Below are positions 738 through 44,186 of a stretch of DNA of 45,030 bases, piece by piece. Under the pieces are notes generated by a model. The model was not told where the DNA came from. It made no database searches and was given only the letters and a program-made list of their open reading frames with translations. The position numbers were made by a program, and so were the translations under genes. Each line of letters begins with the position of its first letter. Positions within the stretch are counted from its first letter, which is position 1. Source of the stretch: a virus. Location of the stretch: positions 1 through 45,030 of the IMG/VR virus record IMGVR_UViG_3300035138_000207; one strand, 5' to 3'.

Positions 738-2639
738 ATGCCGGGTAATCCTTATTTACAGCATTCTTTACTAAATCAAATCAGTTTTGAGTCTTTGTTT
801 GAGATTCGCAATTTCATTAAAGGATTCAAAACCGATGCTTACATTCCCATGCCTTCAAAATGGGCGGCGGAGAATCGTTATCTGCCGCCAGGTACTACTG
901 AATATCCTGGACTTGTTGATCATTCGATCGCGCCTCATTTAGTTGAAATTCAGGATTGCTTTCATCCAGACAGCGGAATCACAAAAGTAACAATCATGAA
1001 GGGCACTCAGGCTCTTGCTACTACGGCAATCGAGAATGTGATCGGTCATAGCATAAAATTTAAACTTCATAATATTTTATATATTATTTCCAGTAAGAAC
1101 ATCGCCGGTATCAGGTCGAGTTCGGCGATAGATACTATGATAGATTACAGCAATCTGACTGAATATATAAAGCCGATATCGACCCGCATGAAACGGAAGG
1201 TCGCCGATAATAAGTACTATAAGGAAATGCACGGCGGGCGCCGGTTGATGCTGACTTCCTGGAATAGCATCGCCGATGCAAAATCCGTAACCTGGTCTTT
1301 TATCATAGAAGACGAGCTTGAGGAAGCACCTTACGAACTCGCAAAACAGGGAGATCCTGAAAGTATTTTTGAAGGACGCGCTAAAACAATCAGGGATTTA
1401 AAGATAGCACAATTGAGCACGCCTATAAATGTCAACGGCAGAATATATAAAAATTTCCTGCTTGGCGATCAGCGTTTTTTTTACGCTCAATGCGTTCTTT
1501 GCGGAGAAAGGCAGATTTTGGAACTATTCGGACTGGGGCGCGATTACGGGTTAAAAGCGAGATCGGAAACGATTGACGGCGTTGAACAGATCATCCCGGA
1601 AACGGTCGAATACATTTGTAAACATTGCAAGAAATCTTTGAGGGAATTTCAGAAGGGAAAAATGATGACCGGCGGTATCTGGATACCGACGGCTCGGCCG
1701 GTCAATCCCGGATACCGGTCGTACCACATAAGCAATTTAATGTCACCGGTAATGTTTTATACATGGACCCGTGTAATGCAGGATTTTTGCGAAACCGACT
1801 GGGGCGCGAATGTAACGAAATTCAAAAATTTTACGATCGATACGCTCGGCTGGCCCTGGGAAAACAGGACTGAAAAGAAATCCTGGAAAGATATTAAGTA
1901 CAAGCGTGCGGAAAAATATCCGCTGGGAATAATGCCGGACGGCGGGTTGATAGCGGTAAGCGGGACCGACGTGCACAAAATATTTTTGGAAACGACCGTC
2001 GTCGGTTACGGTCCGGGAATGGAAAACTGGATCATCGATCATAAGAAATTTTACGGGGAGACTTACAATTATAAAAATAAAGTCTGGCAGGAATGGCAGA
2101 ATTATATTACAAAAATAAAATTTAAATTAAAAAATATCGAAATACCTATAGCAATGAACGCCGTCGATTCCGGATACAACCCGAAACAGAACGAACTGAA
2201 CGACACAAGCCTGAACGAAGAGCATACCGTGTACGAGATAGTCGCGCGGACTCCCCGGTGCATAGCCGTCCGCGGCAACGATTCCCTGCTTGACATGGTG
2301 ATAAAACCGGAAAAAGTGAAAAAGGTTTCTCCCCTCAAATTCCGGTACGACGTGGCTGTCAGCGTCCTGAAGGAAGAAGTTATGATAAACCTCGACCTGC
2401 CGGAAGGTTCCCGTGGGTATATTCATTTTTCCGCAGAATTGCCGGATGAATACTTTAAAGGTTTTTTATCGGAAGTTTACGCGGAAGTTTTGCCGGGGAA
2501 ATGGATGTGGAAAAAAATATACGAACGCAATGAACCGCTTGACACTTATATCAGCGCGAGAGCCGCGGCGGAAAGGCTTAACCTGCCGTCATGGAGCGAC
2601 CAGGTATGGGAGAATTACAGGGGGAAGCTGTTTAATTGA
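738..2639 (+). CDS. terminase large subunit (lambda gpA / GpA family)
   Basis: This is the packaging motor and cos-cleaving nuclease. At 633 residues it matches lambda gpA (641). A P-loop-like segment lies near residues 86-97 (MKGTQALATTA), in the degenerate form usual for GpA proteins, and a Walker-B-like acidic EDELEE begins at residue 191. A Cys-x2-Cys pair near residues 252-256 and a second near 292-295 suggest a small zinc-binding insertion. The C-terminal third carries GTD and NAVDSGY segments typical of the RNase-H-like nuclease. The start has an AAGGAAG ribosome site. The gene lies 59 bases after the small subunit frame and is followed after one base by a small gene. Confidence 0.93.
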   Translation: MPGNPYLQHSLLNQISFESLFEIRNFIKGFKTDAYIPMPSKWAAENRYLPPGTTEYPGLVDHSIAPHLVEIQDCFHPDSGITKVTIMKGTQALATTAIENVIGHSIKFKLHNILYIISSKNIAGIRSSSAIDTMIDYSNLTEYIKPISTRMKRKVADNKYYKEMHGGRRLMLTSWNSIADAKSVTWSFIIEDELEEAPYELAKQGDPESIFEGRAKTIRDLKIAQLSTPINVNGRIYKNFLLGDQRFFYAQCVLCGERQILELFGLGRDYGLKARSETIDGVEQIIPETVEYICKHCKKSLREFQKGKMMTGGIWIPTARPVNPGYRSYHISNLMSPVMFYTWTRVMQDFCETDWGANVTKFKNFTIDTLGWPWENRTEKKSWKDIKYKRAEKYPLGIMPDGGLIAVSGTDVHKIFLETTVVGYGPGMENWIIDHKKFYGETYNYKNKVWQEWQNYITKIKFKLKNIEIPIAMNAVDSGYNPKQNELNDTSLNEEHTVYEIVARTPRCIAVRGNDSLLDMVIKPEKVKKVSPLKFRYDVAVSVLKEEVMINLDLPEGSRGYIHFSAELPDEYFKGFLSEVYAEVLPGKWMWKKIYERNEPLDTYISARAAAERLNLPSWSDQVWENYRGKLFN

Positions 2640-2640
2640 A

Positions 2641-2871
2641 ATGTACTGGACGACTGAAAAAATTAATATAATCAAAACTATTATGCTATATGCAAATAGT
2701 TATGATTCTGCAGTCAAAGAATTAAGGCAATACAATATAATAACAAACAAAGGAGTATTGAATCAAATTGTTGTTAAATTAAGAAAATCTGGAAATATAA
2801 AAACTCCGTTTCTCAGACATGGAGGCAAAAGGCCCGGAAGCGGAAGACCAAAAATAAATTATGAAAAATGA
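2641..2871 (+). CDS. small basic DNA-binding-like protein
   Basis: This 76-residue protein starts with an ATG one base after the large terminase stop, which implies coupled translation. The N-terminal 55 residues look like a compact helical, HTH-like unit with repeated IK/LR motifs. The C-terminus GGKRPGSGRPK resembles an AT-hook/GRP DNA-binding tail seen in many small phage proteins. A longer in-frame extension into the terminase gene exists but overlaps it fully and is unlikely. Codons are much more A-rich than in the terminase, so this marks the start of an AT-rich inserted segment. Function unknown. Confidence 0.6.
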   Translation: MYWTTEKINIIKTIMLYANSYDSAVKELRQYNIITNKGVLNQIVVKLRKSGNIKTPFLRHGGKRPGSGRPKINYEK

Positions 2872-3034
2872 AAAAATAAGACAGAAAAGATTAGAAAAGC
2901 AGAGAATGAAAAGAAAGCATCATAATAAAGTAGCTGATCATAGAAGCAGATGTGAATTCGGGAATTATAGGAAATATCAGCAGGAAAAAATTTATGAATA
3001 TAAATATAGAGAGTTAGAAAAAATATTTAAATGA
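2861..3034 (+). CDS. very basic small protein, unknown
   Basis: This 57-residue reading frame overlaps the previous gene by 11 bases, and its stop overlaps the next ATG (ATGA). That tight coupling is the main reason to call it. The product is dominated by Lys, Arg, Tyr and Glu (KNEKIRQKRLEKQRMKRKHH at the start), probably helical and nucleic-acid binding. No family was recognised. Confidence 0.5.
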   Translation: MKNEKIRQKRLEKQRMKRKHHNKVADHRSRCEFGNYRKYQQEKIYEYKYRELEKIFK

Positions 3035-3282
3035 AAATCAAAAAAATAGATACATCAAAACATTGTATATCAGGAACATTTGAACATCAAATACCGATGC
3101 CTATTATGGGCCGGGTAAGATATATCGATTACTGTATAGCTGATATTGTAGCAGCTTTAAATGCTGCCGGAATAAATACAATTGCTTCATGCTGCGGACA
3201 TGGAAAAGATGACGGATCTATAATTTTAGATGATAGATATGATAACAGGGAAATTATAATTAAATTTAATAAGGAATTATAA
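3031..3282 (+). CDS. small conserved-type phage protein with CCGHG motif
   Basis: This 83-residue protein contains INTIASCCGHGKDDGSI near residues 48-64, followed by a short beta-rich end. The SCCGHG.....GSI pattern recurs in small phage and prophage proteins of unknown function; the Cys-Cys-His group may bind metal. It starts in an ATGA overlap with the preceding small gene. It is the last gene before the first repeat array, which begins about ten bases after its stop. Confidence 0.6.
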   Translation: MKIKKIDTSKHCISGTFEHQIPMPIMGRVRYIDYCIADIVAALNAAGINTIASCCGHGKDDGSIILDDRYDNREIIIKFNKEL

Positions 3283-3292
3283 AATAATTCAC

Positions 3293-3377
3293 GGCGTGGC
3301 ATGAATTAGGAGTAAACCAATATTTTAGAGCGAGCCAACATCTGAGAGTAAACCACATTGGTCGAGCGTAATTTTAA
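3293..3377 (+). repeat. array 1: alternating 9-base repeats with 9-base spacers
   Basis: Repeat R1 = AGTAAACCA occurs at 3311-3319 and 3347-3355, and R2 = AGCGAGCCA at 3329-3337. A degenerate R2 (GGCGTGGCA, 6 of 9 identical) lies at 3293-3301. Each spacer is exactly nine bases: TGAATTAGG, ATATTTTAG, ACATCTGAG and CATTGGTCG. The array closes with AGCG plus TAATTTTAA at 3365-3377, the same 13 bases that close array 2. It sits between a small phage gene and the IS110-like gene. The ribosome site of that gene (TAGGAGTAAA, 3387-3396) itself resembles an R1 start. Stops fall in the frame set by the repeats, so this is more likely RNA or a DNA site array than protein. Confidence 0.85.
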
Positions 3378-3401
3378 AAAAAATATTAGGAGTAAAATTA
3401 A

Positions 3402-4274
3402 ATGAACCAAGAAGATCATAAAAATTTAAAAGCATTAGTACGCACCATGTATGATTATCAGGCAATGCGAATAGTAACTGGCATTAGAATGAGATTCAAA
3501 AAAAATGAAGAAAAAATGGCAGAGGAATTTATGGATGATGCTGAGATATCTGAAAAAGATTACGATGCAGTAAATTATACTTATGAAACTTCAAAACGTG
3601 TTGAAGCAAGATTATCAAAAGAAATTAAAAGTATAATAAAAAAAGAACCTATTTATGAAAAATTTCTTATAAAAGTTCTGGGCTGCGGAGAATTAATGTC
3701 AGCTGCTATTTTATGCGAATTTGATATTGAAAAAGCTGCAACTGTATCAAAATTATGGCAATTCGCCGGATTAAATCCCGGAATGGTCAGAGGTAAAAAA
3801 ATATTGAATATCACAAAAAAAACAGATCTGGCAAAATATGAAGTCGTAAAAAAATATAAAAATCAAAGAGGTGAAGAATGCGCAATAATATTGTCAGATG
3901 AAATGATTAGAGGAGATAAAAAGAAAACCGGATTTATTTCCCCTTTCAATTCATGGATACGAACAAAATTATGCGGCACGCTTGCAGATTGTATGATTAA
4001 AGCAAATGGGAATCCTAATCCGGATAAAATAAATTATCCAGTAAAGTATTATTATCCATATAAAACCAGACTTGAACAGGAAGAAAATACAGTAACTCAT
4101 ATCGGAAAAGAAACCGCATGGAAAGACGTATCAAAAGGACACCGTGATAGAGCCGCAAAGCGTTACATGATAAAAATGTTTTTGAAGGATTTATATGTAG
4201 AATGGAGAACAATTGAAGGATTATCAGTCAGACCACCTTATCAGGAGGAATATTTAGGGCATAAGCATGAATGA
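3402..4274 (+). CDS. orphan IS110-like protein (Transposase_20 domain only), array-associated
   Basis: This 290-residue protein carries the C-terminal domain of IS110/IS116/IS902 transposases. It has a helix-hairpin-helix-like GCGELMSAA at residues 94-102, FAGLNPG at 121-127, and FISPFNSWIRTKL at 178-190. The last aligns with the IS110 segment ISKxGNxxLRxxL that carries the catalytic serine; Ser180 and Ser184 are candidates here. A basic helical tail RYMIKMFLKDLYVEW spans 254-268. The N-terminal DEDD RuvC-like domain of real IS110 transposases is absent, replaced by about 80 helical residues, and there are no insertion-sequence ends or target duplications. It lies precisely between two repeat/spacer arrays, and its stop codon falls inside the first repeat unit of array 2. 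Orphan proteins of this type recur in phages. The role is unknown; RNA- or array-guided action is an inference. Confidence 0.8.
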   Translation: MNQEDHKNLKALVRTMYDYQAMRIVTGIRMRFKKNEEKMAEEFMDDAEISEKDYDAVNYTYETSKRVEARLSKEIKSIIKKEPIYEKFLIKVLGCGELMSAAILCEFDIEKAATVSKLWQFAGLNPGMVRGKKILNITKKTDLAKYEVVKKYKNQRGEECAIILSDEMIRGDKKKTGFISPFNSWIRTKLCGTLADCMIKANGNPNPDKINYPVKYYYPYKTRLEQEENTVTHIGKETAWKDVSKGHRDRAAKRYMIKMFLKDLYVEWRTIEGLSVRPPYQEEYLGHKHE

Positions 4275-4498
4275 GCCAAATGCTTGGAGTAAACCAAAAC
4301 GAAGGAGCGAGCTATGTAAGTGGAGTAAACCAATATACCAGAGCGAGCCATGAAATCTGAGTAAACCACGAATTTCGAGCGAGCCATCAAATCTGAGTAA
4401 ACCAGAGATTTCGAGCGAGCCACAGAAAGTGAGTAAACCAAAGATCTATAGCGAGCCAATTCCGAAGAGTAAACCATTTAAGTAGAGCGTAATTTTAA
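4265..4498 (+). repeat. array 2: twelve 9-base repeats alternating in two types, 9-base spacers
   Basis: R1 (AGTAAACCA) is perfect at 4288, 4324, 4360, 4396, 4432 and 4468, exactly 36 bases apart. R2 (AGCGAGCCA) is at 4342, 4378, 4414 and 4450, with variants at 4270 (AATGAGCCA) and 4306 (AGCGAGCTA). All spacers are exactly nine bases and differ; most end in G, so the unit may be ten plus eight. It opens with GCATGAAT, which also opens array 1 (3299), and closes with AGCGTAATTTTAA at 4486-4498, identical to array 1. It overlaps the end of the IS110-like gene and stops four bases before the next ATG. In register it would read SKPxxxSEPxxx, with an ATG at 4267 but a TGA at 4351 and a TAG at 4483. 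Confidence 0.9.
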
Positions 4499-4502
4499 CA
4501 TC

Positions 4503-5210
4503 ATGAAAATAATAATCAGAACCTGCGGCGAACGCACGACAAAGGAATGTATCCGGCTTGCCGGAAAGCAGGGCAGCGTTGAAGTAATAAACGCCGTCCC
4601 CTTCGGCGAATCGATCAGGCTGACTTATTTAAAAGCGATGCAGTACAACCAGGAATGGGTACCTGTCGTCGATGCCGATACATTGCTTTACGACAACGTC
4701 CTGCAGCCGGCTATCAATGAACTGGCAGGCAAGAATGATAAAATATTCTGCCTTGACGGTAACACTGACGATAAAATCCTGATGAAGAAACGCCGTGCCG
4801 GTATACATATTTACAGGCGGGAGCTTTTAAGTTTTGCAATGCGTTTTATCGACAACAATCACATCAAACCTGAAAGTAATATCAGACGTCAAATGTCCGA
4901 CCTGGGATTTCCGACTTACGTATCGGGAATTGTTTTCGGCAGGCACGATTATGAACAGTATTACAGGGACCTGTGGAGGAAAGCCGTCTGCCAGACTCGG
5001 AAATTGGGAGGGATGATAAAGAACCGGCCGGACAGATGGAAAGAACTGGCAAAGGAAGACGATGATTTTTTTGTCATATACCACGCTCATTATTACGGGA
5101 AAAGTCTCAATGAAAAGATCGTCATCGACAGGCGTCAGGATTTTGATGCTGAGGAAAATATCAAAAAACTGGGATTAAAGGAAAAGGGGGAATATGAAAA
5201 CGCTCAATGA
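4503..5210 (+). CDS. glycosyltransferase-like protein (GT-A fold, DxD)
   Basis: This 235-residue protein has an N-terminal beta-alpha-beta pattern (KIIIRTCGERTTKECIRLA) and a VVDADTLL segment near residues 57-64 that fits the nucleotide-sugar/metal-binding DxD of GT-A enzymes. The C-terminal half is polar and lacks membrane segments, suggesting a cytoplasmic enzyme acting on soluble or lipid-linked sugars. There is no clear ribosome site because array 2 ends four bases upstream. Base use is clearly richer in G+C than the array segment. It begins a run of carbohydrate- and methyl-transfer genes to 8126, consistent with host-surface or virion glycan modification. Confidence 0.65.
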   Translation: MKIIIRTCGERTTKECIRLAGKQGSVEVINAVPFGESIRLTYLKAMQYNQEWVPVVDADTLLYDNVLQPAINELAGKNDKIFCLDGNTDDKILMKKRRAGIHIYRRELLSFAMRFIDNNHIKPESNIRRQMSDLGFPTYVSGIVFGRHDYEQYYRDLWRKAVCQTRKLGGMIKNRPDRWKELAKEDDDFFVIYHAHYYGKSLNEKIVIDRRQDFDAEENIKKLGLKEKGEYENAQ

Positions 5211-5793
5211 AGTCGAAAGTTACTGGAAAAACCCGGACAGCAAGAACGATCCTCTGGGATATATCGTCGGACAGGAAAAAACTGATTTCCTTTGCGGACA
5301 GATTTCTAAACTCGACGATATTAAAAAAAACGATTTAATTTTAGAGCTCGGATGCAATATCGGGCGCAATCTTAACGGACTGGCAGTCAGGGGATACCGG
5401 TTTCTAAAAGGAATCGAGATAAATACGAAATGTAAAAAGGTAACAGATTCACTTTTCCCGAGACTCAAAATCATGGATGTGCCGATATATTACGGGCAGA
5501 TTGAAAGATTACTTCCGACTTATCCTGCCAATTTGAATAAGCTGGTATTTACCATGGCGGTACTTTGCCATATCCATCCGGATGTTGAAGATATTGTCTT
5601 TGATAATATGGTGAGGATAAGCAGTAAATATATTATAACTATCGAAGATGAATATAAAGTATCGGAAAGACATTGTCCGCGAAATTATCATGAGATATTT
5701 AAATCAAGAGGGATGAAGCAGACGGGTTGTTTTCAATGCAGGGGAATCCCTAAACTTGGAAAAAATTATGTTTACAGATGTTTTGAGAAATGA
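5194..5793 (+). CDS. SAM-dependent methyltransferase-like protein
   Basis: This 199-residue class I methyltransferase-like protein has motif I as LILELGCNIGRNLNGL near residues 47-62 and motif II acidic residue as GIEIN near 73-77. Later strands read LVFTMAVLCHIHP and YIITIEDEY. The substrate is unknown; by neighbourhood it may methylate a sugar or sugar intermediate. It starts inside the end of the glycosyltransferase gene (17-base overlap, preceded by AAAAGGGGGAAT) and overlaps the next gene by four bases (ATGA), so the three are translationally linked. Confidence 0.65.
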   Translation: MKTLNEVESYWKNPDSKNDPLGYIVGQEKTDFLCGQISKLDDIKKNDLILELGCNIGRNLNGLAVRGYRFLKGIEINTKCKKVTDSLFPRLKIMDVPIYYGQIERLLPTYPANLNKLVFTMAVLCHIHPDVEDIVFDNMVRISSKYIITIEDEYKVSERHCPRNYHEIFKSRGMKQTGCFQCRGIPKLGKNYVYRCFEK

Positions 5794-8646: not shown

Positions 8647-10125
8647 ATGATCGTAGTTATAAATAACGGCAAGGCCACGCCGCTCAGACGCGGAAAGCAG
8701 ATGACCGGGGAAAAAATACCTGGCGATCTCAAGTCATGGGATCATATGGGCACGGATCCGAACGAGTTGCTGCTATGGTCTTACGATATTTTATCGGAAA
8801 GATCGACGACTCTTTACCATACGCATCCGCCGGTAGCCGGGGCTATAAACAAGCTGACAAATTACGCGATAGGAAATGGGAATGTCTTCCGATCCCAGCC
8901 GGACTGGGAAATCCTGGAAATTAAAAAAGATTACGCGAAGGATTGGGGAATGCGTTTTCAGAAGCTTGTACATTATACATTCAAGCTGCTGAATTATTAC
9001 GAAAAACAATCTCTGCTTTTCAGGACCGCCCTGGTAATGGGAGATTCCCTGCTTATATTCGACAGAAATTCAAAACCGTTCGGAATGCCGTTCGACCTGG
9101 TCGAATCGGGAGGTGACCAGATTAGTTTTCAGGCAAAGGGGACTACGCTTGGCATATATCATGACGGACTTCTGCGCAGGCAGGGAGTAGCGCTTTATGG
9201 CAAGCAGGAAAAAACGCCTTTCACCGACGAGAATGGCGATCAGAACATTATCCAGTTTTACCTGAAGCTGATAGCCAGACAATTACGGGGTTATCCCGCG
9301 GCATACAGGATCATTGCCGCAGCAAAGAACAATGACAGATGGTGGGATGCCACGCTCGCGAGAGCCGTACTTGAAGCGACTATTTTTGCAAGCGTTAAAG
9401 AACAAAATGCCGGCGATACCAATTTGCAAATGGAAGCCCTGCATGACGCGTTATATAACGAAAACGGAAACAAGGCAAATACACTGGAACGGGAGAACGT
9501 ATACGATATCGGCGCCGGAAACATCCTCAGCTATGGAAAAAATGCGGGACCGATAGAATTTTCCGACCTGAAAACGCCTTCAGGCAATTTTGATAAAATG
9601 CAGGCTGCCTATATCGATATGGTCGGAATGGCCACGGATGTGCCTCCCGAATATGTTTTGTCAAAGTACAATACAAGCTACACAGCTCATAAAGGCGCAG
9701 GCAACGACTTTATCCGTTCATACATGCAGAAAAGAAATAGGTTTAATTACAACGTAGACCGGCCGGTAATAAGGGAACTGGCTAAATATTTTTTTATGGC
9801 CGGTTTGATAGAAATGCCTAATCCGAAATTTTTTACAAGTGCCATAATACAGGAAGCGACGATTGCCGGTAAATTTATCGGTCCGGTACCTGGACATATC
9901 AATCCGCTGCAGGAAGTAAACGCAAATGTAAAGGCAGTGGATAACGCTTTTGAATTGCGGTCGGATATCGCGGCGCAGTATGGCAACGAGTGGGACAATG
10001 CTATCGAGGAATGGCAGATCGAAGAGGATGAATTCCGGAAAAAAAAGCCGCAGATACAGGCCCAGATAATCGGGCAGGAAATGGATGAGGCCGATCTGAA
10101 TAAAAATAAAGGAGACGATGAATGA
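8647..10125 (+). CDS. portal protein (lambda gpB family)
   Basis: At 492 residues this fits lambda-type portals (533 in lambda). Recognisable parts are HTHPPVAGAINKLTNYAIGNG near residues 57-77, the central LIARQLRGYPAAYRIIAAAKN region near 208-228, and YKLSxYNTSYT-like SKYNTSYTAHKGAGNDF near 337-353, all typical of the family. The portal forms the dodecameric DNA entry channel at one capsid vertex and docks terminase. Its stop overlaps the start of the protease gene by four bases. Confidence 0.92.
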   Translation: MIVVINNGKATPLRRGKQMTGEKIPGDLKSWDHMGTDPNELLLWSYDILSERSTTLYHTHPPVAGAINKLTNYAIGNGNVFRSQPDWEILEIKKDYAKDWGMRFQKLVHYTFKLLNYYEKQSLLFRTALVMGDSLLIFDRNSKPFGMPFDLVESGGDQISFQAKGTTLGIYHDGLLRRQGVALYGKQEKTPFTDENGDQNIIQFYLKLIARQLRGYPAAYRIIAAAKNNDRWWDATLARAVLEATIFASVKEQNAGDTNLQMEALHDALYNENGNKANTLERENVYDIGAGNILSYGKNAGPIEFSDLKTPSGNFDKMQAAYIDMVGMATDVPPEYVLSKYNTSYTAHKGAGNDFIRSYMQKRNRFNYNVDRPVIRELAKYFFMAGLIEMPNPKFFTSAIIQEATIAGKFIGPVPGHINPLQEVNANVKAVDNAFELRSDIAAQYGNEWDNAIEEWQIEEDEFRKKKPQIQAQIIGQEMDEADLNKNKGDDE

Positions 10126-26694: not shown

Positions 26695-27855
26695 ATGTCA
26701 AATTTTAACCTTTACGCCAGAAAGAAAAAAAGCGGAAAATCCGTCTATTATGTCCGCTTTAAAAAATCGGACGGTTTATATACTACGGCGCTGTCTACCG
26801 GGTGTACATCGAAACTGGCGGCCAGGGAATGGGCTGAAAATCATTTAATTGATATAGGAATACCTGTAACCGGCAGGAACGTAACTTTTAAGGAATTTTC
26901 CAAAAACTTCTTTGACTGGGACGGCACATGGGCGCTTAATAAACGATCGCAGGGTTTAAGGTTAAGTAAGTCTCACTGTCTTTATACCGCAAAGACTGTT
27001 GAGAAGCATGTACTGCCTGTTTTTGGAAATACCAACCTGGCTGATATCGATAAGTTAAAAATCAGGGATTTCAGAAATACATTGTTTAAACAGGGATGGT
27101 CAGGAAGCCTGATAAACAAAGCTTTATATGCCATTAAAATTATACTGGATGCCGCTGAAGAACGGGGATACATAAAAGGCGTACCGAAAATAGAGAAGGC
27201 CGTAGAGAAGCCTAAAATAAAAGGTATTTTAACAATTGATGAAGTCCGGGAATTATTTACGCAGCCATGGATGACAAACACCTACCCTGAACGGGAACAG
27301 TTGCATGGATTTGTCGGGAATTTACTTGCATGTGTGTCGGGATTAAGGCTCGGCGAAATCCAGGGATTGCTTTTGTCAGATTTGCATATTGAAGACGGTT
27401 ATATCACTGTCCGTCGGTCCTGGAATCGGATACTCTGTCATCTTAACGAAACGACGAAGAACGGGAAAATACGGAATATACTGATACCTTCATATGCCGC
27501 CAGTCAGGTAGAAAGGCTCGTAAAAGAAAATCCCGGGCAATCTCCTGATTCTTTTTTATTTTTTTCATTTATTAATTCCCAGCCGGTTGATTCAAAAGTA
27601 TTTATTAACTCTTTTTTTAATGCCTTGAAAAAAATCGGGATATCCGAAGTGGAACGTAAGCAACGCAACATAACTTTCCATTCCCATCGCCACTGGTTCA
27701 ATTCCCTTCTCCTGAACGCGAGGATCCCGCTGCATAAGGTGCAATCGTTAACGGGTCATCTTTCCGATGAAATGACCGAATTGTATTATCATACTGACGA
27801 TATGGCAGATGTAAAGCAGATTCAGGAAGAATTGTTTTCTGATAAAATAAATTAA
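26695..27855 (+). CDS. int: tyrosine-recombinase integrase
   Basis: This 386-residue protein has a small N-terminal AP2-like arm-binding domain (residues 1-50), a core-binding SAM-like domain (about 60-165), and a catalytic domain. That domain contains Arg in VSGLRLGEIQGL, HSHRHWFNS, GHLSDEMTELYYH, and nucleophile Tyr near residue 364. It inserts the phage at the 3' end of a host tRNA-Ala gene using the core at 26555-26599. It lies directly beside attP, in the forward direction, as in many lambdoid-like phages. Confidence 0.95.
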   Translation: MSNFNLYARKKKSGKSVYYVRFKKSDGLYTTALSTGCTSKLAAREWAENHLIDIGIPVTGRNVTFKEFSKNFFDWDGTWALNKRSQGLRLSKSHCLYTAKTVEKHVLPVFGNTNLADIDKLKIRDFRNTLFKQGWSGSLINKALYAIKIILDAAEERGYIKGVPKIEKAVEKPKIKGILTIDEVRELFTQPWMTNTYPEREQLHGFVGNLLACVSGLRLGEIQGLLLSDLHIEDGYITVRRSWNRILCHLNETTKNGKIRNILIPSYAASQVERLVKENPGQSPDSFLFFSFINSQPVDSKVFINSFFNALKKIGISEVERKQRNITFHSHRHWFNSLLLNARIPLHKVQSLTGHLSDEMTELYYHTDDMADVKQIQEELFSDKIN

Positions 27856-28298: not shown

Positions 28299-28649
28299 TC
28301 AATAATTATTTTTTTTTAAAGCGAGAAGGACAGTATCAAGATAATTTGAAAAATCATTATAAATTTTTTCCTGAAGATCGTCGGGTAAAAGATTAATCTC
28401 ATGTGCCATTTCTACACAAATTTTCGGTAGATTAAATCTTTTTGCTTCCTCTTCTGTTTCATAAAAAAATTCCGATAATGACATTTTGGGCTTTAAAATT
28501 TTAAGTGCTTTCTCGATAAAATCAATCGGAGGATAGCTTGATTTTTCCCAAACAGAAATACTCGTTTGAGCAAAACCTGTTTTCTGAGACAATAATCCCT
28601 GACTCATTTCCAATTCTTTACGTAATTTTTTAATTCTTTCCCCATACAT
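28299..28649 (-). CDS. XRE-family repressor (CI-like)
   Basis: This 116-residue protein has an N-terminal Cro/CI-type HTH at residues 4-58 (ERIKKLRKELEMSQGLLSQKTGFAQTSISVWEKSSYPPI). The C-terminal half is short and helical, without a LexA-like peptidase, so release from repression would not use RecA-driven self-cleavage. It is divergent from the forward early genes that begin at 28792, with the shared control region between them. This is the standard place for the lysogeny repressor. Confidence 0.85.
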   Translation of the reverse strand: MYGERIKKLRKELEMSQGLLSQKTGFAQTSISVWEKSSYPPIDFIEKALKILKPKMSLSEFFYETEEEAKRFNLPKICVEMAHEINLLPDDLQEKIYNDFSNYLDTVLLALKKNNY

Positions 28650-30690: not shown

Positions 30691-30996
30691 ATGACTAAGC
30701 TACAACAGGGAGATGTAATTTTAATAAAAGTAAATTGCGATTTACGACAAGGAAAAAAATTAAATCATCTTATTTTAGCCGAAGGGGAAGCAACCGGACA
30801 TTCTCATCAAATTGTTTCCGGTATTGCTACTTTAATAGCAGTGGGAAATAAAACGATATTACACGTTTTATCTGACTATGCAAAACTCGATCATGAAGAA
30901 CATAAAGAAATCAATGTACCAAAAGGTAAATGGGAGGTTAAAAAAGTCAGGGAATACGATCATTTCGAGGAAGAAATAAGACAGGTTATAGATTAA
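30691..30996 (+). CDS. small protein coupled to the tetrapeptide-repeat gene
   Basis: This 101-residue protein has the pattern QGDVILIKV...LAEGEATGHSHQI...LHVLSDYAKLDHEEHKEINVPKGKWEVKKVREYDH. This beta-rich small protein, with GE.TGHSH and H.EH..I..P.G.W.V...REYD, recurs next to repeat proteins of the kind encoded immediately downstream. The His-rich motifs suggest metal binding. Its stop shares a base with the next start (TAATG), so the pair is probably co-translated. Confidence 0.65.
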   Translation: MTKLQQGDVILIKVNCDLRQGKKLNHLILAEGEATGHSHQIVSGIATLIAVGNKTILHVLSDYAKLDHEEHKEINVPKGKWEVKKVREYDHFEEEIRQVID

Positions 30997-32423
30997 TGAT
31001 AAATCAATTAACACAAAAACAGGAAGAACAATTAATTCAATTCCGCGAAGAATGTCTTACAATAGGATTATCCACAGATCGGATAGATCGTTCTAAAAAT
31101 CAAAAAATAATAAATTGGATTTATAAAAAATATTTAAAAATCGATAAAAATCCTTATATATGGTATATTGATAGTCCTTTTTCATATAATTTAGTTATCA
31201 ACATTCTATATAATCTCGGGGCCAATCTCAGGGACAATCTCAAGGACAATCTCTGGGACAATCTCTGGGACAATCTCGGGGCCAATCTCAGGGACAATCT
31301 CAAGGACAATCTCTGGGACAATCTCAGGGACAATCTCGTGGCCAATCTCAGGGCCAATCTCAGGGCCAATCTCGTGGCCAATCTCAGGGCCAATCTCGTG
31401 GCCAATCTCAGGGCCAATCTCGGGGCCAATCTCAGGGACAATCTCGGGGACAATATCTGGGACAATATCTGGGCCAATCTCAGGGACAATCTCGTGGCCA
31501 ATCTCAGGGCCAATCTCGTGGCCAATCTCAGGGACAATCTCTGGGCCAATCTCTGGGACAATCTCTGGGCCAATCTCAGGGCCAATCTCTGGGCCAATCT
31601 CAGGGACAATCTCTGGGACAATATCGGGGCCAATCTCTGGGACAATCTCGGGGACAATATCGGGGCCAATCTCAGGGACAATCTCGGGGACAATATCGGG
31701 GCCAATCTCGGGGACAATATCGGGGCCAATCTCAGGGACAATCTCGTGGACAATATCGGGGCCAATCTCAGGGACAATCTCGTGGATAAAGTTACATTTT
31801 ATAATATATATCACTGTAATTTAGATATCTTTTGGATATCATTTTATATGTATCCATTATTATATATAAAAAATTTTTACGGATTATTAGCAAAAGATAT
31901 TATAAGATATTTTGAACTACAGAAAAATATAGGCTATGTTTTTTATCACAAAGATATATGTTTTATTTCAGAGAAACCCATTGAGATAAATAAATCCGGC
32001 ATCCAGTTGCATGCTGACGGAAAACCTGCACTACTCTTTGCGGATGGATATTGTTTATGGATGCTTAATGGCGTAAGAATGCCAAAAAAAATTGTCATGA
32101 CTCCTGCTAAAGAACTCGATTGCAATTTAATTTTAAAAGAAAAAAATGCCGAAGTAAGACGTGAAATTATCCGTAAAATAGGTATAAATAGAGTCATTGA
32201 GAAACTAAAAGCTACATCCATTGATAAATCTCTGGATGGTCAATATGAATTAATGAATTTTAATTGTATTGATGGTAGATTCCGACCTTATCTTAAAATG
32301 TTAAATCCTTCAAACGGAATGTGGCATATCGAGGGAGTACATCCTGACTGTCGAACCATAAGCCAGGCTTTATCATGGAGAGACGGTGAGGATGATTATC
32401 AAAAACCTGAAATACTTACATAG
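30996..32423 (+). CDS. tetrapeptide-repeat protein (DUF6745-like)
   Basis: This 475-residue protein has three parts. Residues 1-72 are an N-terminal helical domain. Residues 73-264 are 48 uninterrupted repeats of N-[LI]-x-[AD], where x is only G, R, W, V or K. Residues 330-475 form a C-terminal domain with LHADGKPALLFADGYCLWMLNGVRMP and KNAEVRREIIRKIGINRVI, which fits the DUF6745 family as I recall it. No enzymatic motif is visible. The function of such proteins is unknown. The almost identical codons of the repeats indicate recent expansion. It is coupled to the upstream small gene. Confidence 0.75.
   Translation: MINQLTQKQEEQLIQFREECLTIGLSTDRIDRSKNQKIINWIYKKYLKIDKNPYIWYIDSPFSYNLVINILYNLGANLRDNLKDNLWDNLWDNLGANLRDNLKDNLWDNLRDNLVANLRANLRANLVANLRANLVANLRANLGANLRDNLGDNIWDNIWANLRDNLVANLRANLVANLRDNLWANLWDNLWANLRANLWANLRDNLWDNIGANLWDNLGDNIGANLRDNLGDNIGANLGDNIGANLRDNLVDNIGANLRDNLVDKVTFYNIYHCNLDIFWISFYMYPLLYIKNFYGLLAKDIIRYFELQKNIGYVFYHKDICFISEKPIEINKSGIQLHADGKPALLFADGYCLWMLNGVRMPKKIVMTPAKELDCNLILKEKNAEVRREIIRKIGINRVIEKLKATSIDKSLDGQYELMNFNCIDGRFRPYLKMLNPSNGMWHIEGVHPDCRTISQALSWRDGEDDYQKPEILT
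31212..31787 (+). repeat. 48 tandem 12-base units
   Basis: 576 bases of AA-T-[CA]-TC-NNG-G-[CA]-C units with no interruption or frameshift. Variation is confined to three places: first base of codon 2 (C/A), the first bases of codon 3 (GGG, AGG, TGG, GTG, AAG), and the middle of codon 4 (GCC/GAC). Because the period is a multiple of three, antisense frames over it are also open and should not be taken as genes. Confidence 0.95.
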
Positions 32424-38269: not shown

Positions 38270-39211
38270 TTGAATGAGTTGGCTCTTTTCGCGGGCTCTG
38301 GTGGAGGAATACTCGGAGGATTTCTCCTCGGATGGAAAACAATCTGTGCAGTTGAAAAAGATCCCTATTGTGCAGGGGTACTTATACAAAGGCAAAATGA
38401 AGGCATTCTCCCGCCGTTCCCTATCTGGGATGACGTTTGCACTTTTGACGGACGCTTATGGAGAGGCATTATTGACATCGTTTCTGGAGGCTTTCCATGC
38501 CAGGACACCAGTCAGGCGGGAAAAGGAGCTGGACTTGACGGGGAAAAGTCAGGACTTTGGAAGGAAATGGCAAGAATCATTCGCGATGTTAGACCAAAAA
38601 TCGTTTGGGTGGAAAACTCGTCAATACTCAATCAACGGGGACTTGACCAGATTCTCCGGGACCTGGCCGAGATGGGGTATAATGCTCGATGGGGAGTGCT
38701 GGGAGCTGATGATGCCGGAGCGAATCACATCAGGAAGAGAACATGGATTCTGGCGTACACCGGATGCAGGAACTCATGGGAATGTAGCGACACCAAACAA
38801 GAGTGTAATAAATGGAACGGCAAGGAAGAATCAACAAATAAGATTAGTCGATCAAGTTACAATGTGGCCCACTCCGACACAATCAGATTACCGGACAGGA
38901 TACGGAATGTCAAATGCCGGCAAAAAGAGAATGAAACATTCCAGGGGCAAGCCTCTCCGGGATGTAATATTCAGAACTCCGACACAATCGGACGCGAACA
39001 AATGGTCCAACCAATCGGAAAGGGAACGCAAGGAAAAAGGACAATCTGTCAGGTTGAACCATCAACTGGAAGTTGGTGGAAAACTGAACCCGATGTGGGT
39101 AGAATGGCTGATGGGGTGGCCGCTAGGGTGGACAGACTTAAAGCCATTGGAAACGGACAAGTTCCGGCAGTGGTTAAACTCGCATGGAGTATTTTGAGTA
39201 ATATACGATGA
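38270..39211 (+). CDS. C5-cytosine DNA methyltransferase
   Basis: This 313-residue protein starts at a TTG with AAGGA eight bases upstream. Motif I is LALFAGSGGGILGG (residues 4-17), the catalytic Cys77 lies in GGFPCQD, ENS is at 115-117, and the motif VIII-like HIRKRTW is at 153-159. A variable polar target-recognition region spans 165-275, and motif X RLKAIGNGQVP lies near 289-299. It methylates cytosine in phage DNA, probably against host restriction. Its whole length is overlapped in the +1 frame by another long coding frame. Confidence 0.85.
   Translation: MNELALFAGSGGGILGGFLLGWKTICAVEKDPYCAGVLIQRQNEGILPPFPIWDDVCTFDGRLWRGIIDIVSGGFPCQDTSQAGKGAGLDGEKSGLWKEMARIIRDVRPKIVWVENSSILNQRGLDQILRDLAEMGYNARWGVLGADDAGANHIRKRTWILAYTGCRNSWECSDTKQECNKWNGKEESTNKISRSSYNVAHSDTIRLPDRIRNVKCRQKENETFQGQASPGCNIQNSDTIGREQMVQPIGKGTQGKRTICQVEPSTGSWWKTEPDVGRMADGVAARVDRLKAIGNGQVPAVVKLAWSILSNIR
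38274..39197 (+). CDS. overlapping-frame protein inside the methylase gene
   Basis: This 307-residue frame starts at an ATG four bases inside the methylase gene and ends 14 bases before it, all in the +1 frame. It begins MSWLFSRALVEEYSEDFSSDG and contains FSGTWPRWGIMLDGECW and, near its end, LNPMWVEWLMGWPLGWTDL. These are hallmarks of a phage protein family I recognise, often annotated beside or as cytosine methylases. A stop-free frame of this length is unlikely by chance, so both frames are probably under selection. Function unknown; it might be a methylase partner. Expression of both would use starts four bases apart. Confidence 0.6.
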   Translation: MSWLFSRALVEEYSEDFSSDGKQSVQLKKIPIVQGYLYKGKMKAFSRRSLSGMTFALLTDAYGEALLTSFLEAFHARTPVRREKELDLTGKSQDFGRKWQESFAMLDQKSFGWKTRQYSINGDLTRFSGTWPRWGIMLDGECWELMMPERITSGREHGFWRTPDAGTHGNVATPNKSVINGTARKNQQIRLVDQVTMWPTPTQSDYRTGYGMSNAGKKRMKHSRGKPLRDVIFRTPTQSDANKWSNQSERERKEKGQSVRLNHQLEVGGKLNPMWVEWLMGWPLGWTDLKPLETDKFRQWLNSHGVF

Positions 39212-39930
39212 GTCAAAAAACGAAAATTGAATGGTGCGATATTACCTGGAATCCGGTATGGGGTTGTTTAAGAGGGTGTGAATATTGTTATGCAAAGAGA
39301 ATTTCAAGAAGATTTTATAGAAAAATTGGTAATATCGATATCAATTATAAACTTGATAATAATATAATTCCATACTCAGAAAGTCTGATTGAAAGATATG
39401 AGGAATACGATAATCTTTACAATTTCCATCCAATCTGGCTGGAATCAAATTTTCAAAAAAAATTCCCTAAGAAACCATCCCATATATTTGTTAATTCCAT
39501 GTCGGATATATGCTATTGGCAGCCTGAATGGATATATAGGGTTTTCGACAGGATTAAACAATATCCGCAACATAAATTCTTGTTTTTAACAAAAGATATG
39601 AAATCATATTTTATTAATTATCCGGAAAACTGCTGGCTCGGAATTACAGCGGCTGATCAGAAACAAATGGATAATCTCGGCTCTTTTACCTCAAGTCATA
39701 TAGTGTTCATATCGGTTGAACCAATTCAGGAAAAAATAAAATTAACAGTAAAACCGAACTGGTTAATAATTGGTGCTGAAACCGGTAATCGTAAAAATAA
39801 AGTTATTCCTGAAAAAAGCTGGATAGCAAATTTATTATTAGAAGCGGACAGATATTTAATACCTGTTTTCATGAAAGACAATCTCAAGCCTGTTTGGGGA
39901 AATGAACTTATCCAGGAGTGGCCGGAGTAA
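39208..39930 (+). CDS. phage Gp37/Gp68 (DUF5131) radical-SAM-like protein
   Basis: This 240-residue protein begins SQKTKIEWCDITWNPVWGCLRGCEYCYAKR with Cys20, Cys24 and Cys27 in a C-x3-C-x2-C cluster site. It continues IFVNSMSDICYWQPEWI, FLFLTKD, NCWLGITA, ISVEP and WLIIGAETG, the ordered strands typical of the DUF5131/Gp37-Gp68 family. It probably binds a 4Fe-4S cluster; the substrate is unknown. It starts in an ATGA overlap with the methylase. Confidence 0.9.
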   Translation: MSQKTKIEWCDITWNPVWGCLRGCEYCYAKRISRRFYRKIGNIDINYKLDNNIIPYSESLIERYEEYDNLYNFHPIWLESNFQKKFPKKPSHIFVNSMSDICYWQPEWIYRVFDRIKQYPQHKFLFLTKDMKSYFINYPENCWLGITAADQKQMDNLGSFTSSHIVFISVEPIQEKIKLTVKPNWLIIGAETGNRKNKVIPEKSWIANLLLEADRYLIPVFMKDNLKPVWGNELIQEWPE

Positions 39931-41289: not shown

Positions 41290-41658
41290 ATGCTGGCATT
41301 ATCAATCCGTGAACCCTGGATATATGCTATTCTGCATTTAAAAAAAAATGTTGAGAATAGAACCTGGCCAACGAAAGTTTGTGGCAGAATTTTATTACAT
41401 GCATCAAAACAGTTCGATTATGATGGCTATAGATGGATTGAAAATGAAATGGGATATATTCTTCCTGAAAAAGATATGTTTGAACTTGGCGGTATTGTGG
41501 GATCAGTAGAAATAACAGACTGCATTAAATATCATGATTCAGGCAAAAAAATTCCTTCATGGTTTTTTGGTCCTTATGGATTTATATTAAAGGATCCTGA
41601 ACCAATAAATTTTATATTATATAAAGGGCAGCTTGGATTTTTCGAGGTTCATATATAG
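41290..41658 (+). CDS. ASCH-domain protein
   Basis: This 122-residue protein starts at the ATG nine bases after GAGGTG. LALSIREPWIYAILHLKKNVENRTWPTKVCGRILLHASK (2-41) is a clear ASCH/PUA-like signature, followed by GGIVGSVEITDC near 66-77 and FFGPYGFILKDPEPI. ASCH proteins bind RNA or modified nucleosides; some cut RNA or deacetylate nucleosides. Here it may act on RNA or modified bases alongside the DNA methylases. Its stop overlaps the next GTG start. Confidence 0.85.
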   Translation: MLALSIREPWIYAILHLKKNVENRTWPTKVCGRILLHASKQFDYDGYRWIENEMGYILPEKDMFELGGIVGSVEITDCIKYHDSGKKIPSWFFGPYGFILKDPEPINFILYKGQLGFFEVHI

Positions 41659-44186
41659 TGAATAATTCAGATTATTTAAAATTTCTAAAAAACAAAATGA
41701 AGCTTGCTGTCTCTTCAGGTATTGACGTTGCCAAAATAGACATCCAAAACATAAATACCGGAGTAAAGAAATTAAAGCCGCATGAAATTGACGCGATTAG
41801 ATGGGCTGCTATCGGAGGACGTCGCGCATTGTTCGAATCATTCGGACTTGGTAAAACATGTCAGCAGCTTGCGCTTGCGAAATTAATTACAGACAGGGAA
41901 GACGGTAAATTTTTAATTATTATGCCGCTCGGAGTTAAGCAGGAATTTAAAAGAGACGCTCAGGATTTTTTTAATATTAACGATATCGTTTATGTAAAAA
42001 CACTGGAAGAATGCAGGGAATCAAGCAGTAAAATACTGATTACCAACTACGAGCGAGTCCGCGACGGGAATATTGATCCTAATTATTTTATTGGATGTTC
42101 CCTTGATGAAGCATCTATACTAAGAGGATATGGCACAAAGACATATCAGACTTTTTTGACATTATTTGACGGAGTCAAATATAAATTTGTCGCAACTGCA
42201 ACGCCTTCGCCTAACAGATATAAAGAGTTAATTCATTATGCCGGTTTTCTTGGAATAATGGATACTGGGCAGGCCCTCACTCGTTTTTTTAAAAGAGATT
42301 CGACAAAAGCCAACAAGCTGACTTTGTATCCGCATAAAGAAGAAGAATTCTGGCTGTGGGTATCGACCTGGGCGCTGTTTATTACAAAGCCTTCAGATCT
42401 CGGATATGACGATACGGGTTACGATCTGCCGCCTCTGAACATTCATACCCACAGGCTGAAAGTCGATCATTTGACTGCAGGCGCCGACCGGATGGGGCAA
42501 ATGCAGCTATTCAGGGATGCGGCACTATCAATTCAGGATGCCTGCAAAGAAAAGAGAGACAGCCTTGATAATCGTATAGATGAAATGATGCGGATTATTG
42601 ATGCTAATCAGGAAAAGCATTTTATTATCTGGCATGATCTTGAATCGGAAAGGCACGCGATAAAAAAAGCATTGCCTGAAGTAAAGGAAATCTATGGAAC
42701 ACTTGATATTGATATTCGTGAACAAAGGACCATCGATTTTTCAGACGGTAAAATAAAGTATATCGCTACAAAACCGGAAATATCCGGATCCGGGGTCAAC
42801 TGGCAGCGGTATTGCTCAAATGCTATATTTTTAGGCATAGGATACAAGTTTAATGATTTTCTGCAGGCTATTCACCGTTTACGGCGTTTTCTTCAGGATA
42901 AGGAAGTTAATATTTTCATTATTTATACGGAATCGGAAGATCAGATATATCAAGTTCTTTTGCAGAAATGGCAGCAGCATGATTATCTTGTAAATAAAAT
43001 GATTGATATAATTAAAAAATATAACCTTTCAATTAATGCCATCGAAGACGGTTTAAAAAGGTCATTTCATCAGGAGAGAACAGAAGTGAAAAAAAACAGA
43101 TTTATTGCAATCAATAATGATAATGTAATTGAATGCCGGAATATGAAAGACAATTGTATTGATCTTTTGCTGACATCAATTCCTTTTAGCAATCATTACG
43201 AATATACGCCAACATATAATGATTTCGGTCATAATGAAAATAACGAAAAATTTTTCATCCAGATGGATTTTTTAACGCCTCATCTTTTAAGATTGCTTAA
43301 ACCGGGCAGGGTGGCCTGTATTCATGTAAAAGACCGCGTTTTATTCGGAAACGCGACCGGTGACGGAATGCCGACGATAGATCCTTTTTCAGACATGACG
43401 GTTTTTCATTTTATCAAGCACGGCTTCCGCTACATGGGAAGGATAGTCGTTTTGACTGATGTAGTCAGGGAAAATAACCAGACATACCGGCTCGGATGGT
43501 CCGAGCAGTGTAAAGACGGCACTAAAATGGGAGTCGGATGTCCTGAATATATACTATTATTCAGGAAGCTGCCTTCCAATAATAATAAAGCTTACGCCGA
43601 TAATCCCGTAATTAAATCCAAAAAGGAATATACAAGGGCGCAATGGCAGATTGATGCGCATGCTTTCTGGAAATCATCCGGAAACCGGCTTCTTTCATTT
43701 GAAGAATTAAAAAATATCAAGATTGATAATTTGCAGCATGCTTTTCGGGATTTTACTAGTAAAGAAATATATGATTATGACCAGCATATAGAATTGTCAA
43801 AATATCTCGATGAGAACAACCGATTGCCAGCTGCTTTCATGGTAGTGGCGCCTGGTTCATGGTCGGACCTTATATGGGATGATATTAACCGTATGCGGAC
43901 ATTAAACGGCAATCAATCCGCGAAAAATCTGCAAATGCATATATGTCCGTTTCAATTAGACATAGTTGAAAGGTTAATTAACAGATTTAGTAATAAAAAC
44001 GATGTTGTTTTTGACCCATTTGCTGGATTATTTACAGCCCCTTATATGGCCGTTAAAATGGGACGGAAGGGAATAGGAATAGAATTAAATCTGGAATCAT
44101 TTTATGATGGTGTTCAATATATGAATGCTGTTGAAGAAGAATATGAAACTCCGACATTATTTGATTATTTGGATATGGCAGGATAA
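41658..44186 (+). CDS. SNF2-like helicase fused to DNA adenine/cytosine-N4 methylase
   Basis: This 842-residue protein starts at a GTG overlapping the previous stop. The first half is a superfamily 2 motor: Walker A SFGLGKT (61-67), DEAS (150-153), TATPSP near 178, and a second RecA lobe ending FLQAIHRLRRFLQ. The second half is a beta-type N6/N4 methylase: catalytic-type TSIPF at 506-510 (in place of TSPPY/DPPY), then motif I DPFAGLFTAPYMAVKMGRKGIGIE at 786-809. It would translocate on and methylate DNA. The change of P to I in the catalytic loop may affect target or activity. Confidence 0.85.
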   Translation: MNNSDYLKFLKNKMKLAVSSGIDVAKIDIQNINTGVKKLKPHEIDAIRWAAIGGRRALFESFGLGKTCQQLALAKLITDREDGKFLIIMPLGVKQEFKRDAQDFFNINDIVYVKTLEECRESSSKILITNYERVRDGNIDPNYFIGCSLDEASILRGYGTKTYQTFLTLFDGVKYKFVATATPSPNRYKELIHYAGFLGIMDTGQALTRFFKRDSTKANKLTLYPHKEEEFWLWVSTWALFITKPSDLGYDDTGYDLPPLNIHTHRLKVDHLTAGADRMGQMQLFRDAALSIQDACKEKRDSLDNRIDEMMRIIDANQEKHFIIWHDLESERHAIKKALPEVKEIYGTLDIDIREQRTIDFSDGKIKYIATKPEISGSGVNWQRYCSNAIFLGIGYKFNDFLQAIHRLRRFLQDKEVNIFIIYTESEDQIYQVLLQKWQQHDYLVNKMIDIIKKYNLSINAIEDGLKRSFHQERTEVKKNRFIAINNDNVIECRNMKDNCIDLLLTSIPFSNHYEYTPTYNDFGHNENNEKFFIQMDFLTPHLLRLLKPGRVACIHVKDRVLFGNATGDGMPTIDPFSDMTVFHFIKHGFRYMGRIVVLTDVVRENNQTYRLGWSEQCKDGTKMGVGCPEYILLFRKLPSNNNKAYADNPVIKSKKEYTRAQWQIDAHAFWKSSGNRLLSFEELKNIKIDNLQHAFRDFTSKEIYDYDQHIELSKYLDENNRLPAAFMVVAPGSWSDLIWDDINRMRTLNGNQSAKNLQMHICPFQLDIVERLINRFSNKNDVVFDPFAGLFTAPYMAVKMGRKGIGIELNLESFYDGVQYMNAVEEEYETPTLFDYLDMAG

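Follow-up and report, generated by a model that had tools for sequence, protein, structure and literature searches.

What should we make of a 290-codon gene with a repeat array on either side of it, all on the + strand, sitting between the terminase and portal genes of a virus? This is the question raised by IMG/VR record IMGVR_UViG_3300035138_000207, the whole of which (45,030 bases, from here on 'the window') was analysed, and the answer is almost certainly that the arrays and the gene together form a phage-borne TIGR-TasA system. TIGR-Tas is an RNA-guided DNA-binding system described by Faure et al. in 2025 (PMC12045711), and the locus is a new, compact, nuclease-free example of it, small and complete: a single 290-residue protein and eight guides, on a phage contig of 45 kb. 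The natural targets of TIGR-Tas, the origin of its arrays and the role of nuclease-free TasA are still open questions (PMC12045711). The reasoning of an earlier note on this DNA had pointed to the right mechanism, though the note did not name TIGR-Tas.

What do the arrays look like?

Both arrays lie where the earlier note had placed them, at 3293-3368 (array 1, two units) and 4270-4489 (array 2, six units), both on the + strand, and in each an edge repeat, AGCGAGCCA, alternates with a loop repeat, AGTAAACCA, at an exact 18-nucleotide step that gives a 36-nucleotide unit, the layout published for TIGR (PMC12045711). At this step the longest alternating chain of the window runs to 11 members, against a single one in all 20 of its shuffles, so chance can be excluded and the alternating two-repeat design that the note had described is confirmed; the internal repeats are all perfect except one. 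Array 1 opens with a degenerate edge, GGCGTGGCA, at 3293-3301 (three mismatches), continues with a loop at 3311, an edge at 3329 and a loop at 3347, and stops at a truncated edge, AGCG, at 3365-3368; its spacer pairs are TGAATTAGG/ATATTTTAG and ACATCTGAG/CATTGGTCG. Array 2 also opens with a degenerate edge (AATGAGCCA, 4270-4278), which overlaps the tasA stop codon at 4272-4274, and it goes on with loops at 4288, 4324, 4360, 4396, 4432 and 4468 and edges at 4306 (AGCGAGCTA), 4342, 4378, 4414 and 4450, before its own terminal AGCG at 4486-4489. The spacer pairs of its six units are, in order, AATGCTTGG/AAACGAAGG, TGTAAGTGG/ATATACCAG, TGAAATCTG/CGAATTTCG, TCAAATCTG/GAGATTTCG, CAGAAAGTG/AAGATCTAT and ATTCCGAAG/TTTAAGTAG.

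The 3′ boundary is the same in both arrays, just as the note had it: AGCGTAATTTTAA, a truncated edge with an AT-rich tail, stands at 3365-3377 and again at 4486-4498, and AGCG followed by TAATTTTAA is the 3′ end of either array, while the first edges are degenerate and not cleanly cut. For the common opening that was also claimed, GCATGAAT, the letters are indeed present at 3299-3306 and 4265-4272, but the registers are not equivalent, since the array 1 copy begins in the edge repeat and runs on into spacer A, and the array 2 copy mostly precedes the edge repeat and encodes the C-terminus of the protein (H-E-stop). In addition, edge and loop repeats both begin AG and finish CCA, the so-called box motifs, in the window and in most of its relatives.

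The published hallmarks of TIGR are edge and loop repeats, paired spacers of about 9 nucleotides, a truncated edge with which the array ends, and TasA as a free-standing Nop-domain protein, and the dual-repeat type has two distinct repeats of 8-12 nucleotides that alternate, again with spacers of about 9 nucleotides (PMC12045711). The window has the alternating repeats, the truncated edge, the box motifs and an adjacent Tas Nop-domain protein, and its array anatomy agrees with the published layout in nearly every testable feature. The note's proposal of a multi-guide RNA read from the arrays fits this anatomy and its two repeat types; the further proposal that these types mark two kinds of guide does not, since edge and loop alternate within one guide RNA (PMC12045711).

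What does the gene between them encode?

The gene, tasA (3402-4274, + strand), is an intact open reading frame for a 290-residue Nop-domain protein that retains the family's invariant residues, and its identity comes from phmmer, profile and AlphaFold2/Foldseek comparisons. A single-sequence phmmer search matches it to TasH at E 1.2e-12 and to TasR at E 1.4e-8, and with a family profile the values for TasH and TasR are 6.6e-21 and 9.8e-23, the latter being that for 9mty. With the AlphaFold2 model of TasA (predicted local distance difference test score, pLDDT, 88), Foldseek retrieves TasH complexes at a best E of 4.7e-12, TasR at 1.4e-7 and IS621 at 4.4e-4. PHROG 4285, annotated 'transposase', matches at 9e-34, and a sub-threshold Pfam match to Transposase_20 (15.1 of 21.3 bits) accounts for the impression of an IS110 protein in the earlier note. 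That relationship is borne out by this weak match and by the IS621 fold, as is the reported lack of the N-terminal catalytic half, for Foldseek finds a Nop-type fold only and no DEDD half of an IS110 transposase; an ordinary transposon had rightly been judged unlikely. No HNH or RuvC domain was found in the 290 residues by Pfam, in the AlphaFold2 model or by Foldseek, the Nop-type fold filling the length, and it is because the protein has no nuclease domain that we assign it to the TasA type.

How common is this arrangement, and what accompanies it?

An alignment-based scan collected 80 viral and 7 genomic loci, which with the window make 88, and an array was counted when our script parsed four or more repeats alternating in a chain. 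The check suggested beforehand, whether homologues have 9+9 arrays beside them, came out in favour: a 36-nucleotide dual-repeat array was parsed in 71 of the 88 loci, the window included. Of 81 non-duplicate loci, 64 have a 36-nucleotide period at most 2 kb from tas; as a control, the stretches more than 5 kb from tas, which total 447 kb, showed it in only 5 cases. Most relatives have AGCGAGCCA or a near form of it as their edge repeat, and the loop repeat varies around AGAAAACCA.

In the tree, the TasA of the window falls within a clade of 19 (support 98/97), in which 13 members have a ParB-like gene at most 650 bases from tasA. The proteins encoded by this partner gene are 220-265 residues long (for example at 2609-3292 in locus L097, and beside tasA at 12 other loci); those scanned gave no Pfam hit at 0.001, and their predicted structure resembles KorB, Noc and ParB (best E 3e-6). 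On that modelled fold the partner is ParB-like, and it is probably the published TasParB. Within the clade, the window forms a subclade with L002, L017 and L018 (support 100/97), and in these three relatives the partner was not found in the DNA searched, while tasA and the arrays are kept. With the root of the tree placed for drawing only, and some of these contigs short, the difference may reflect either loss in the subclade or gain elsewhere. A clade with a ParB-like partner beside a four-member subclade without one is a detail that we did not find in the text of PMC12045711, and so close a subclade offers a natural contrast for asking what the partner does.

How might the system work?

The earlier note had given the spacers nine bases, and that length is right, but the ninth base is G in 15 of the 16 window spacers (11 of 12 in array 2) and behaves as part of a 10-nucleotide repeat. 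The same position is nearly constant within most loci of the clade, and equal after edge and loop (A in 16 of 16 spacers in L020, G in 34 of 34 in L023, with L018 as the exception), another detail not found in the text of PMC12045711. The repeats are therefore effectively 10 nucleotides long, as they are in published ParB-linked arrays (PMC12045711), and the guides between them are probably 8 nucleotides.

In the published system each 36-nucleotide tigRNA contains spacers A and B together, one for each strand of the DNA (PMC12045711), and by homology the arrays in the window would yield guides of this size. A TasA dimer would then hold one tigRNA via the AG...CCA box motifs common to edge and loop, spacers A and B would each pair with a different strand of the DNA, and a site of about 16-18 bp would be opened and bent, as has been shown for TasR and as we infer here. 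Since TasA has no nuclease domain, the DNA would be bound and not cut, and we regard such cleavage-free, RNA-guided DNA binding as likely. The most likely use, and the least certain step of all, would be to keep foreign or host DNA from being transcribed or replicated; a roadblock role against non-self DNA specifically is a reasonable guess that we would place a little short of an even bet.

How the arrays grow can be glimpsed from their units. Neighbouring units are slightly more alike than in shuffled order (mean 5.64 of 18 versus 5.47, p 0.005), and at 8 bases per spacer, 10 or more of 16 bases are equal in 16 pairs, where 8.4 would be expected (p 0.0015). In array 2, units 3 and 4 are equal at 14 of 18 bases (TGAAATCTG/CGAATTTCG versus TCAAATCTG/GAGATTTCG; 4351-4413), and units common to related phages differ by single substitutions. 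This is modest evidence for some growth by local duplication and drift, and other causes, such as guides against variants of one target, may also explain the similar units. In units 3 and 4 alike, spacer A resembles spacer B reverse-complemented; systematic complementarity of A to B was not found, in agreement with PMC12045711. Our most far-reaching proposal, which we think rather unlikely to hold in its entirety, is that the TasA of the subclade has parted from its ParB-linked relatives and, alone with 8-nucleotide guides, would serve as a phage-borne, cleavage-free programmable DNA binder against competing elements, its arrays diversifying in part as units duplicate locally and acquire point mutations, and not by the capture of new spacers.

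What speaks against this, and what else could it be?

Several results weigh against a TIGR-TasA system working as described. A rho-independent terminator after the array is typical for TIGR (PMC12045711), and none follows the arrays here, no terminator-like site having been found on the + strand in 2500-5300. A search with a profile of the ParB-like partner found it nowhere in the 45-kb window, and a subclade without it may work differently from the described TasA-TasParB loci. Finally, no natural target rose above controls in the phage's own genome, in related phages or in viral contigs.

Self-targeting was looked for along the entire contig and not seen: in the published geometry (A + 0-2 nucleotides + the reverse complement of B) there is no site in the phage's 45 kb at up to 3 mismatches in 9+9, and an 8+8 search of the window gave one site at 2 mismatches versus two in a mispaired control. 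At the family's own loci there were 32 matches at up to 3 mismatches for 845 true pairs, with no enrichment over the 37-46 in controls (the same pairs in other geometries; 709 mispairs). Across phages, in 1.15 Mb, 770 true units gave 7 one-mismatch matches, again without enrichment (4-6 for 647 mispairs, 7-11 for wrong geometry). Exact 18-base scans of viral contigs returned 1, 1, 4 and 5 matches for four real units and 1 for one mispaired control; the unit with five counts one virus three times, and for the unit with four the loci are not homologous by blastn, three of them having a similar coding context by eye, which we take as a common short protein motif. These database matches look like chance, and the lack of an own-genome match is consistent with non-self targets.

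The same searches bear on the idea that the phage keeps TIGR-TasA for its own use, with guides that bring TasA to sites on the phage genome, there to take part in regulation, replication or integrase architecture. The phage does encode a tyrosine integrase (26695-27855), and help for integrases from DNA bent by TasA is a possibility raised by Faure et al. (PMC12045711), yet with self matches no more frequent than in the mispaired control in the window, or than in mispaired or wrong-geometry controls at the family's own loci, we consider this use improbable. Less probable still, in our opinion, is a decayed or non-functional remnant, a TasA left without its partner beside shrinking arrays. The missing ParB-like gene, present in 13 of the 19 clade members, would fit such decay, as would an array 1 of only two units and the degeneracy of both first edges, but the reading frame is intact, the invariant residues are kept, all internal repeats but one are perfect, and three subclade relatives also lack the partner and still have tasA and arrays.

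What else does the phage carry?

By gene content, the window is probably a temperate tailed phage. Upstream of the TIGR module lies a GpA-type terminase large subunit (738-2639, + strand; phrog_15 at 8.5e-116, PF20454 and PF05876) and downstream the portal protein (8647-10125, + strand; phrog_21, PF05136); a head protease, a major head protein, a tape measure protein and a helix-turn-helix repressor-like gene (28299-28649) are found as well. In L002, whose TasA is about 68% identical, the terminase is again upstream and the portal downstream, although identity of the terminase is no higher than 26%; the one upstream in L097 is 27% identical. Judging by these three loci, the tas module seems to be exchanged between phages more readily than its neighbouring genes.

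Three other loci deserve mention. A 12-base tandem repeat (..GGGACAATCTC..) runs for about 47 copies at 31212-31782, within an open reading frame of 475 residues (30996-32423) that matches DUF6745 at residues 307-415; it appears to code a tetrapeptide repeat and gives a strong but false 36-base period. A DUF5131 protein (39208-39930, E 2e-35) has a relative with 41% identity in L019, about 9 kb from the tasA of that locus. Along an 842-residue protein (41658-44186) there are matches to DNA helicase families, joined in the C-terminal half by matches to DNA methyltransferase families; it is possibly a helicase-methyltransferase fusion.

How does the locus compare with known systems?

Searches of the window with Rfam (at gathering threshold) and for tRNAs returned nothing, and PADLOC returned nothing for the four proteins tried. 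The 'candidate new system' of the earlier note, a separate IS110-derived guide-RNA system with two repeat types for two guide classes, is scarcely credible and is refuted as new by the TIGR-Tas match, since for all the weak Transposase_20 and IS621 resemblance, TasH and TasR are far better matches in sequence and fold, and the array is laid out almost entirely as published for TIGR. With the IS110/IS621 bridge-RNA recombinases (8wt6) the protein shares a related Nop-like RNA-binding core (Foldseek E 4e-4), but it lacks their DEDD catalytic half, and the window has an array in place of a single bridge RNA. TasH and TasR (PDB 9w04, 21kl, 9mty) are closer, with a homologous Nop core and C-terminal region (fold E 5e-12 to 1e-7), although the TasA of the window has neither their HNH nor their RuvC nuclease domain. 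With the TasA-TasParB operons (PMC12045711, fig. S14) it probably shares one well-supported TasA clade, in our tree at 98/97, and like them it has effectively 10-nucleotide repeats, whereas in the DNA searched neither the window nor L002, L017 or L018 has a parB-like gene. Set beside typical TIGR-TasA, it differs in having no terminator-like site after the arrays and two units in array 1 instead of the usual 5-15 (PMC12045711), and it is like TIGR-TasA with a dual-repeat array, such as FpTIGR of Flavonifractor plautii (PMC12045711), in its phage location, which is common in the family.
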